From positions 124,001 through 188,000 of the forward strand of contig NZ_JAPZSK010000014.1 in assembly GCF_027531815.1 (NCBI RefSeq): a stretch of DNA of 64,000 nucleotides, given 5' to 3'. This stretch comes from Gemmatimonas sp. Its GTDB lineage: Bacteria; Gemmatimonadota; Gemmatimonadetes; Gemmatimonadales; Gemmatimonadaceae. Positions 24,862 to 27,688 of the stretch are shown one piece after another. Position 1 is the stretch's first letter; every line of letters begins with the position of its first letter. The notes under the pieces were generated by a model. It was not told the origin of the DNA, made no database searches, and saw only the letters and a list, made by a program, of their open reading frames with translations. The position numbers and the translations under genes are program-made.

Positions 24862-25010
24862 TCCGCGTCCTTGCCGGTCATTCCCCCCACCGCCGTCAGG
24901 TTTTCTCCGTTTGCGGGGGGAGGGTACGGGATGCACCGTGGGACTACGCCTCGACGTGCGTGGCGTCGATGGCCGCGCAGTTGTGCCCCACGCGTCACCG
25001 TGCACTTCCC

Positions 25011-25247
25011 ATGAGGGAAGAAGAGTACGACCGCTTGCGTGCGGCCGCCGCCGAGCGGCTCGGTCATGAGCTCGCGCACTTCCGCGGCCGTGTGGCGCAC
25101 AAGGCCATGCTCGATATCTGGGAGGCACACCAACGGTTCGAGAGCCCCGTGGCGTTCAGTGCGTTCGTCGAGGAGGCCGTACGCCAGGAGGCGGACTTCC
25201 AGCGACGCAAGCATGCGGCGCTTCGCCACCGTGACGGTCAGGCGTAG
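25011..25247 (+). CDS. Short sigma-70 region-2-like ORF
   Basis: 78 residues, no signal. The pattern EEEYDRLRAAAAERLGHEL ... AMLDIWEAHQRFESPVAFSAFVEEAVRQEADFQRRK resembles region 2 of ECF sigma factors (the LW-x-x-F then R-x-x-x-D-x-x-R-R pattern), but no region 4 is present. It ends with an in-frame TAG; the same reading frame continues 12 codons later into the FecR-like gene. It could be a regulatory sigma fragment, the first half of a fused sigma-FecR protein interrupted by amber, or chance resemblance. No good ribosome site precedes the ATG. Confidence 0.5.
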   Translation: MREEEYDRLRAAAAERLGHELAHFRGRVAHKAMLDIWEAHQRFESPVAFSAFVEEAVRQEADFQRRKHAALRHRDGQA

Positions 25248-25283
25248 CACCACGTCGACGTTCCCTCGGTCGACGACGCGGTC

Positions 25284-26048
25284 ATGGCCCTGATGGCCGA
25301 ACTACATGCGCCCGTCACCGATCACGCCCACACCCTCGAGGAAGTGCGCGCCCTGAAACGGGAGCACACCAAGGAGCACGTGGAGCGCGTGGTGGAGAAG
25401 CCCCGCTGGCTGCTGTACGGCGGCATGGCGCTCGTGGCAACCGTGGTCATCGTGGCGGCCCAGCGCGTCCTCGATCAGGCAGGCAGCGAAGTGCCCGTCG
25501 ACCGCGCCCTCACGAGCGAGGCCGCACAACACCTTCCGTCGAACCGGGGGCAGCGCGGCTCATTCACCCTCCGTGACGGCACGGTCACGGTTACGGCCGC
25601 CGGCACGGGGTTCACCATGCGACACTACCCCGAGGAGGCCGACGTGGTGGTGCAGGTCGCGGAGGGGATGGTCTCGGTACGGGACAGGGACTCCGACGCC
25701 ACGCAAACGGTGAAGGCGGGCGAGGCGGTACGCGTGACGAATGGTACCGTCACGCCACGCGACGGGGTCGCGCGTGATGCGGCGCTGGCATGGACCCGAG
25801 ACGGCATCGTCTTTGTCCAGGCGCCGCTCACGACGGTGGTGCCGGAGCTGGTGCGCTGGTTCGGTATGAACGCCGCCCTCGTCGATACCACGGTCGGTGA
25901 CCGTCCGGTTTCCATGCGTATTGCCAAAACCTCGGCGGGCGATGCCGCCACGGCCCTCACGGCGGCGGCCGATCTGGTGATCACCTTCGGCAAGAACGAT
26001 CGGATCGAGTTCAAGGGGGCGCCGGCCGCGTCCCTACGCACGCCGTAG
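25284..26048 (+). CDS. FecR-like anti-sigma/signal transducer
   Basis: 254 residues with the layout of FecR proteins. Residues 1-45 are cytoplasmic and Arg/Glu/His-rich, followed by one helix (WLLYGGMALVATVVIVAAQ), then a FecR domain (FTLRDGTVTVTAAGTGFTMRH, DVVVQVAEGMVSVRD). The C terminus (APLTTVVPELVRWFGMNAAL ... RPVSMRI) resembles the short secretin/TonB N-terminal domain (DUF4974) used to sense a partner receptor. Such proteins control an ECF sigma factor in response to an outer-membrane receptor. No full sigma gene is adjacent; only the short upstream ORF. The next gene codes for an outer-membrane barrel. Confidence 0.75.
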   Translation: MALMAELHAPVTDHAHTLEEVRALKREHTKEHVERVVEKPRWLLYGGMALVATVVIVAAQRVLDQAGSEVPVDRALTSEAAQHLPSNRGQRGSFTLRDGTVTVTAAGTGFTMRHYPEEADVVVQVAEGMVSVRDRDSDATQTVKAGEAVRVTNGTVTPRDGVARDAALAWTRDGIVFVQAPLTTVVPELVRWFGMNAALVDTTVGDRPVSMRIAKTSAGDAATALTAAADLVITFGKNDRIEFKGAPAASLRTP

Positions 26049-26251
26049 CCTGGCTTGGCAAGACCGCGCGCCAGCGCACAACCATTGACGCGCCCTGCCC
26101 CCGGAACCAAGGCGGCGCGGGTGGGGACCGCTGGCGCGAACCCTTTGCGAAGCTCGTGCGTATGGCGGATGCACGCTCCGCCGGGAGGTGCGCTTTCCAT
26201 GCCGCAATTAGGACCGCCAGTCCGGTCCAGCTCCTCATATTCAGGACCCCC

Positions 26252-27688
26252 ATGCGTTCCCCTTGGTGCGCCGCGCGCTCGGTTGCCGCGGCGTTTTCGT
26301 TCTGGCTCCTCGCCGCCTCGACGCTCGCGGCGCAACCGCGGGGTGAGCGCGGCGCCCGCAGCGGTGCCCCCGAGGCTGGCGCGTCGGCCACCGCCGGCGC
26401 TGGCGCCACGGTGCTCCCCGACAGCCTGCTGCAGAGCTCGCTACGGGTCTTTCTCGACTGCCAGGGGGGCGTACGCGGGTGCGATCGTCAGTTCTTCGTC
26501 CAGGAGATGGGGTTCGTGAACTGGGTGCGCGACCGCTTCGACAGCGACGTACATCTGCTGCTGACGTCGCTCAATGCCGGCAACGGAGGCCGACAGATCA
26601 CGGTCAACTTCCTGGGCCAGAAGGGCTACGCGGGAAAGATCGACACCCTCGTCGTGTCGACCCTGCCCAACGATGCCGATGACGTGGTGCGACGTGAGCT
26701 GCTGCGCACGTTCCAGCTGGGGCTTGCCCCCTACGTGGCGCGCACCCCCATCGCGTCGCGCCTGCGCCTGTCGCTGGCGAATGGTGTCGTGGCGCCCACC
26801 CTCAACCCGCGGGCCGTGAAGGACCGCTGGAACCTCTGGCTCTACCGCGTGGACGGCAACATGAATGCCAGCGGTGAGCAGTTGGTGCGCACCACCAATC
26901 TGTCCTCGACGCTGTCGGCAGCGCGCACGACCGAGCAGTGGAAGATCAACGTGGGAGCTACGGGCAGCTACAACGAGCGCGACTTCAAGGTGTTCCAGAC
27001 CAACCGTGCCAACCCCGCGCTGCGCGATACGGTCTCGGTGGTGGTGCTGCAGCGCGCGGCCAACGCCAACGCGCTGTTCGGTCGCACCATCAATGCACAC
27101 TGGACGGCCGGTCTGAAGATCGCCGGCGGCTTCAGCGAGGTCCTCAACCAGAAGCTCAACGTACGCGTATCGCCGGCGATCGAGTACAACTACTTCCCGT
27201 GGAGTGAGGCCACGCGCCGCCAGCTCACCGCCCTGTACTATGTGGGTCCCAACTACTACCAGTACTACAGTCGGACGGTGTTCAACCAGGTGGAGGAGAC
27301 CCGCTTCAACCACACGCTCCTCCTGGCACTCACGCAACGGCAGAAGTGGGGCAACACCAACCTCACGCTCGAAGGCTCCCAGTACCTGCACGATCCCAAT
27401 CGCAATCACGTCACCCTGAGCGGCTTCGTGGACCTGCGACTCGGGCGCGGCTTCTCCCTCAACTTCCGCGGCTCGGCGTCGCGCGTGCGCGACCAGATCT
27501 ACATTGCCGCCAACGCGCAATCGGAGCGCGACATTCTCACGCAGCGCCAGCAGTTGCAGACGAACTTCCGCTACAACATGAATGTGGGGGTGGGCTACAC
27601 CTTCGGCTCCATCTACAACACCGTGGTCAACCAGCGCTTCGGCAACCTGGGCGAGTTGGGACGGCGCTTCGGTTCCTTCGGCGGCTGA
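26252..27688 (+). CDS. Outer-membrane beta-barrel protein of unknown family
   Basis: 478 residues with a Sec signal (VAAAFSFWLLAASTLAAQ). Residues ~60-160 form a soluble part with two Cys (FLDCQGGVRGCDRQFFVQEM) and QITVNFLGQKGYAGKIDTLVV. From ~195 to the end the sequence alternates polar and hydrophobic residues with Tyr/Phe/Trp caps (WKINVGATGSYNERDFKVF, LTALYYVGPNYYQYYSRTVF, NMNVGVGYTFGSIYNT), typical of a porin-like barrel. I do not recognise the family. ATG at 26252 is preferred to 26156 because AGGA precedes it and it gives a clean signal. It follows a FecR-like gene. Confidence 0.75.
   Translation: MRSPWCAARSVAAAFSFWLLAASTLAAQPRGERGARSGAPEAGASATAGAGATVLPDSLLQSSLRVFLDCQGGVRGCDRQFFVQEMGFVNWVRDRFDSDVHLLLTSLNAGNGGRQITVNFLGQKGYAGKIDTLVVSTLPNDADDVVRRELLRTFQLGLAPYVARTPIASRLRLSLANGVVAPTLNPRAVKDRWNLWLYRVDGNMNASGEQLVRTTNLSSTLSAARTTEQWKINVGATGSYNERDFKVFQTNRANPALRDTVSVVVLQRAANANALFGRTINAHWTAGLKIAGGFSEVLNQKLNVRVSPAIEYNYFPWSEATRRQLTALYYVGPNYYQYYSRTVFNQVEETRFNHTLLLALTQRQKWGNTNLTLEGSQYLHDPNRNHVTLSGFVDLRLGRGFSLNFRGSASRVRDQIYIAANAQSERDILTQRQQLQTNFRYNMNVGVGYTFGSIYNTVVNQRFGNLGELGRRFGSFGG

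Follow-up and report, generated by a model that had tools for sequence, protein, structure and literature searches.

A broken sigma region 2-FecR fusion gene in Gemmatimonas sp. and its unbroken relatives in the Gemmatimonadaceae

In the window, as we call the whole 64,000 nt stretch of Gemmatimonas sp. DNA that was analysed, an open reading frame resembling part of a sigma factor is followed, in the same frame, by one that resembles FecR, with an amber codon between them. What is this split gene? The original prediction, made from the sequence of the window alone, offered three answers, namely a decayed sigma/anti-sigma fusion, a stop codon that is read through by design, and a free-standing piece of a sigma factor under the control of FecR. 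The gene lies on contig C14 of a 4.3 Mb genome (G000).

The reading frame and its intact relatives

Positions 25011-26048 on the forward strand form a single reading frame with exactly one internal stop codon, the TAG at 25245-25247; the normal terminator at 26046-26048 is also TAG. The second open reading frame starts with an ATG at 25284, 12 codons past the internal TAG and in the same frame, and encodes 254 aa. The predicted layout is borne out by translation. The length of 78 codons given for the first open reading frame is correct for a start at 25011; however, there is an earlier in-frame ATG at 24969, and the figure hinges on the start that is chosen.

The frame is not a chance feature, as it can be aligned across the TAG to an uninterrupted protein from a relative. 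The alignment consists of two pieces with identities of 64 % and 60 %, and the break between them falls at a deletion near 25583, not at the TAG. Relative to L036, the two open reading frames share 71 % (first) and 59 % (second) identity. In the alignment with the 11 closest relatives, the premature amber codon occupies a linker column that contains A, T, Q, K, G or S, and none of the 11 has a stop there.

Four segments can be recognized along the forward strand. A sigma region 2-like remnant of 78 codons, truncated at its N-terminus (25011-25244), is identified by its identity to L036 and by the match of the family profile to region 2 of extracytoplasmic function (ECF) sigma factors. It is followed by a linker and juxtamembrane segment (25248-25406; from the list of open reading frames and the alignment), in which ATG 25284 is a possible restart. 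A presumed transmembrane helix, WLLYGGMALVATVVIVAA (25407-25460), was read by eye and aligns with a hydrophobic stretch in the relatives. The remaining periplasmic part (25461-26045; from Pfam and the alignment) comprises a damaged FecR domain and a FecR_C-like end.

Two names used in the original prediction apply to the family but not to the window pieces themselves. The 'FecR-like' label is justified for the relatives, in which the Pfam FecR domain is present, whereas the window C-terminal open reading frame has no Pfam FecR match up to E=1 and reaches FecR_C only at E=0.22. Likewise, a sigma region 2 without region 4 is found at the family level, but the window fragment by itself matches no Pfam model up to E=1 and its sigma similarity appears only through the family profile. 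A match of window pieces to PF14262 (E=0.0018, under the cut-off for that model) was judged to be due to chance.

In the relatives, one uninterrupted open reading frame encodes a sigma region 2-like domain, a linker, a transmembrane helix and a FecR domain. The comparison of homologues that had been proposed as a check was made, and the relatives keep the reading frame without the stop. Full-length fusions, defined as matches that begin at query residue 10 or before and reach at least residue 375, are present in at least 86 of 179 Gemmatimonadaceae genomes (16 from the genus of the window and 70 others; the 179 include G000), and none of them contains an internal stop codon. Not included in this count were G157, where the gene is spread over two contigs, G036 and G089, where it meets contig ends, and five shortened genes from genus g7. 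Stops flagged as internal in G002, G072 and G060 were found to be terminal stops when the coordinates were compared. Full-length rows were also flagged for G105, G139, G142, G052 and G116, and their family search matches are without a stop. When 395 genomes of the phylum were searched, the matches listed included 76 that start at or before profile position 20 and extend to position 415 or beyond; these all come from Gemmatimonadaceae, and the listed matches from other families cover only the FecR part. As the full-length fusion is widespread and free of internal stops, the unsplit sigma2/FecR fusion is the normal state of this gene, and the window copy is the exception.

One genome, G067, has an additional N-terminal piece at the edge of a contig (L138, G067:C185), besides a full-length copy close to where a different contig starts (G067:C160). 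These two are probably one locus at overlapping contig ends.

As judged from sequence, the window gene and the fusion genes of the relatives occupy the same locus and are orthologues. Among 12 relative loci searched, the PhoX gene (PF05787) upstream of the window gene was found in seven, at 79-86 % identity. The di-haem peroxidase gene (PF03150) beyond it was also found in seven. A Rieske gene (PF00355, E=1.3e-10) was found in two, those of G003 and G015. Downstream of the fusion, a 510 aa open reading frame (window 26156-27688) is shared with four of the 12, at 82-88 % identity. This open reading frame has no Pfam match; its product is a possible partner of the fusion protein. Homologues encoded by two separate genes, which would have counted against a split fusion, were found only at paralogous, ordinary sigma/FecR loci and not among the orthologues.

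Further lesions and the fate of the window copy

The amber codon is not the only lesion. In comparison with all 11 closest relatives, the window copy lacks the first 26 codons. Where the relatives hold the 5′ leader, the Shine-Dalgarno sequence and these codons, the window has a segment (24941-25010, forward strand) in which local alignment detects no similarity to the leaders or N-termini of nine relatives (lowest of 18 p-values 0.08, 500 mononucleotide shuffles). An N-terminus that was frameshifted rather than lost was considered and rejected, as the segment resembles neither. In 35 of 36 relatives, the start chosen by the script is preceded by 4 nt or more that resemble a Shine-Dalgarno sequence, and no such stretch was found before the window ATGs at 24969, 25011 and 25284.

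Immediately upstream, comparison with relatives revealed a promoter-like element (24895-24939, forward strand) made up of GTCAGG, GTTTGC (24909-24914) and CACCGT (24934-24939). GTTTGC is located 86-130 nt before the chosen start in nine of the 11 closest relatives (L036-L046), the pattern being absent in L037 and L038, and GTCAGG is variable among them. The conserved GTTTGC element is a putative promoter. The whole of 24895-24939 could be a promoter plus an operator.

The second large lesion lies within the FecR domain, where 50-52 codons have been deleted in frame, with the junction at 25583-25584 (forward strand) in the alignment to relatives. In L036 and L037, two of the six relatives for which the sequence was printed, GGCAC is present on both flanks of the stretch that is deleted in the window, and these repeats suggest that the deletion occurred by slippage. 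Pfam FecR (PF04773) is recognized in 30 of the 32 rows of an alignment of 30 relatives and the two window pieces. Hence a FecR domain follows the transmembrane helix (read by eye) in the relatives, but not in the window product. G000 showed no second, intact copy; it carries three further FecR genes, each near a sigma gene. The next best match to the window copy shares 62 % identity, across part of the FecR half. With no closer strain for comparison, the TAG taken singly could be a sequence error, which would not account for the stretches that are missing.

The stop codon, the absent front end and the hole in the FecR part, set against unbroken relatives, mark the split as most likely decay. 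Orthologues are intact and the window's own copy carries the lesions, the pattern of a pseudogene. Three events can be seen directly in the window lineage: the start region was lost, an amber codon was gained, and 50-52 FecR codons were lost. At best, two short fragments would still be made, and no ribosome-binding site is apparent for either. We conclude that the window gene is very probably a recently inactivated pseudogene, and not a case of read-through or a regulated sigma fragment. Of the three answers offered initially, the decayed fusion is thus the one that fits, with relatives that keep one stop-free frame and a window copy that has additional lesions.

The codons that remain retain a coding signature. 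The ratio of changes at positions 1+2 to those at position 3 on the terminal branch, computed on a fixed protein tree and expected to be about 1 after long neutrality, is 0.21 for the window, the third highest of 12 (0.06-0.30 in the 11 relatives), with values of 0.31 for the N part and 0.19 for the C part. The amino acid branch of the window is the longest of the 12 (0.41; the next is 0.34). Columns that are invariant in all other sequences are changed in the window at four of 23 positions in the N part and five of 78 in the C part, as many as in the most divergent relatives. The length of the large FecR deletion is divisible by three, and we detected no frameshift beyond 25011. As the remaining codons are still coding-like, either the gene was inactivated recently or it yields a shortened product that remains in use.

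A match at E<=1e-15 is missing from 13 of 30 genomes of the genus. However, only two of 16 good assemblies (>=90 % complete and <=5 % contaminated) lack the gene, and this supports its dispensability weakly.

A product could still be in use if the sigma2-like part had been lost and a transmembrane-FecR protein, restarted at ATG 25284, remained a functional, shortened membrane protein. Besides the coding signature, there is a precedent for this: G051, G053, G055, G061 and G062, all from genus g7, keep a transmembrane-FecR protein with no significant sigma2 match in the stretch that was fetched, and these proteins resemble the fusion family more closely than they do ordinary FecR proteins (best bit scores 129-144 versus 71-88). 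However, the G051 protein, the one of these five for which the Pfam FecR cut-off was tested, passes it (37 bits, cut-off 24), whereas the window FecR, without its 50-52 codons, has no Pfam FecR match, and no Shine-Dalgarno sequence precedes 25284. For this reason, such shedding of a domain is ranked second to gene decay, and we consider it unlikely. The g7 genes (L131-L135) each lie near a similar gene, which we take to be dipeptidase-like.

Fission of the gene, such that the sigma2 fragment of 78 or 92 codons acts as a regulator in its own right under the adjacent FecR-like protein, is very improbable. Sigma factors divided over two polypeptides are known, as with SigO/RsoA of Bacillus subtilis. 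However, the window fragment is missing its 26 N-terminal codons and a ribosome-binding site, it carries the charge-reversed polymerase-contact site of the family (see below), and the FecR domain next to it is damaged.

Programmed read-through, which would make one protein from the two open reading frames, is in keeping with the preservation of the frame across the TAG, but it can be virtually dismissed: the column is unconserved, each of the 11 closest relatives has a sense codon there, the gene itself ends with TAG as well, no tRNA genes are present within the window, and read-through could restore neither the missing N-terminus nor the FecR core. An error of sequencing or assembly in an otherwise working gene is equally hard to credit, as a single wrong base call would suffice to create the stop but would leave the missing N-terminus, the absent Shine-Dalgarno sequence and the 50-52 codon deletion unexplained.

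The sigma region 2 part and the origin of the fusion

The likeness of the N-terminal part to sigma factors is clearest when profiles are compared. A profile of 32 relatives, compared one-against-one with a profile of 13 ECF sigma factors of G000 (hand-picked from 25 sigma matches in that genome), matched over 86 columns in region 2 with a probability of 98 % and E=1.8e-13. Searches with Pfam models gave weaker results. Sigma70_r2 was found in eight of 32 N-terminal pieces (best E 0.0019) and Sigma70_ECF in five (best E 0.0015), and in the 32-row alignment (30 relatives and the two window pieces) no sigma model matched at E<=0.01. The best PDB match of the family N-terminal part is RpoE (E=0.0013). 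An AlphaFold model of the N-terminal domain, built from a five-row alignment, has four helices (pLDDT 75.5, pTM 0.45). With this model, Foldseek returned no match at E<=0.001, and the best of 16 matches was the sigma factor AlgU (E=1.8). A model of a full-length relative was too poor to be used (pLDDT 49).

Two domains expected of an ordinary sigma/anti-sigma pair were not found. No sigma region 4 model matched any of the 32 rows (30 relatives and the two window pieces) at E<=0.01, and such models do match both of the two ordinary sigma factors of the same genome that were tested. The N-terminal sigma-binding domain of FecR (DUF4880) was also found in none of the 32 rows; of four ordinary FecR proteins tested, only two show this domain, and then below the cut-off.

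The region 2 that remains is altered at the site of polymerase contact. Residues of the region 2.2 site were compared by their distance from a W, using the N-terminal 100 or so residues of 32 fusions taken from part of L036-L065 and L079-L085. At W-10, the 13 ordinary sigma factors all have D or E, and the fusions have R or K (31 of 32) and in no case an acidic residue. At W-11, E or D is present in 12 of the 13 ordinary sigma factors and P, G, A or T in all 32 fusions, and the Q at W-7, found in 13/13 ordinary sigma factors, is retained in only three fusions. The window fragment has R at W-10, like the rest of the family. Acidic residues in region 2.2 are usually needed for contact with the polymerase beta-prime subunit, according to an extract of PMC8999054. 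With respect to membership of the ECF sigma factors, the relatives therefore have the homology in region 2, but neither region 4 nor the acidic and Q residues that contact polymerase.

Both halves of the fusion have counterparts in ordinary loci. In all eight ordinary loci compared, the C-terminal part of the fusion profile matches the FecR gene and the N-terminal part matches the neighbouring ECF sigma gene (E 1.1e-13 to 6.6e-9). The eight were picked for their FecR match, and the sigma match is thus the independent part of the evidence. The sigma gene comes first, on the same strand, in seven of the eight, and the pair is divergent in L148. The homology of ordinary FecR starts at fusion profile position 91-110 in L142-L146, which were picked for where the match begins. 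L147 has a weak stretch at position 110, and the start is at 194 in L148 and 162 in L149.

From these matches, we infer that the family most likely arose when a FecI-type sigma gene became joined to the fecR gene beside it. The joining would have been accompanied by loss of sigma region 4 and of the FecR N-terminal sigma-binding domain, and the sigma2 domain would now be placed where that domain was. The simplest origin would be a deletion or fusion across the adjacent pair.

Proposed function and comparison with known systems

In the intact orthologue, a sigma region 2-like domain in the cytoplasm is predicted to be connected, by a linker and a single transmembrane helix, to a FecR domain in the periplasm. 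The intact relatives are probably membrane proteins that sense the periplasm, in which the sigma2-like module would bind a partner rather than start transcription, since these proteins lack region 4 and have the opposite charge at the polymerase-contact site. That the fusion protein acts as a normal sigma factor is unlikely. Our preferred reading of the sequences is a membrane-tethered sigma mimic or partner-binding module. A more detailed scenario is possible, but doubtful: the charge-inverted sigma2 domain would have replaced the anti-sigma domain of FecR, proteolysis on a periplasmic signal would free the partner-binding module from this tethered mimic, and the window species would be a natural knock-out. 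Candidate partners of the freed sigma2 module would be an anti-sigma factor, a sigma factor or polymerase.

The closest known protein is IutY of Pseudomonas putida (ECF243), in which, as described in PMC5411451 and PMC8999054, a cytosolic sigma domain and an anti-sigma part in the membrane are likewise joined in a single polypeptide. PMC5411451 describes the IutY sigma domain as becoming active when it is freed by Prc and RseP. In contrast, the Gemmatimonadaceae chimera has no detectable region 4, its region 2 is altered, and the window copy is broken. A fusion is found in the relatives, but a complete sigma factor is not, and as the protein does not qualify as a sigma factor it is not IutY. 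The window gene is instead a broken member of a Gemmatimonadaceae sigma2-FecR variant.

The resemblance to FecI/FecR-type pairs lies in the matches of the two halves to neighbouring sigma and FecR genes in 8/8 ordinary loci. However, those pairs are two genes and the chimera is one, without region 4 and the FecR N-terminal domain. ECF48, ECF52 and ECF53 also consist of an ECF sigma factor with a C-terminal membrane anti-sigma extension (extract of PMC8999054), but they are actinobacterial and their extensions are zinc fingers, whereas that of the chimera is FecR. EcfP of Vibrio parahaemolyticus (ECF43) is similar in that its sigma 2.2 is without the acidic DAED motif, and it is intrinsically inactive (PMC8999054). 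EcfP is switched on by phosphorylation (STTA motif), and in the chimera the site has R or K instead. In the open-licence papers searched, no description of such a sigma2-FecR chimera in Gemmatimonadota was found.

The split that drew attention to this locus would itself be ordinary gene decay, but tracing it exposed the chimera, and the family found in the relatives is the more interesting part. Half a sigma factor has been kept across many genera, without region 4 and with its polymerase-contact residues reversed. The window genome and the five genomes in which the sigma2 part was shed would be natural cases of loss. If the chimera is functional, sigma domains may be recycled as signalling or decoy modules.
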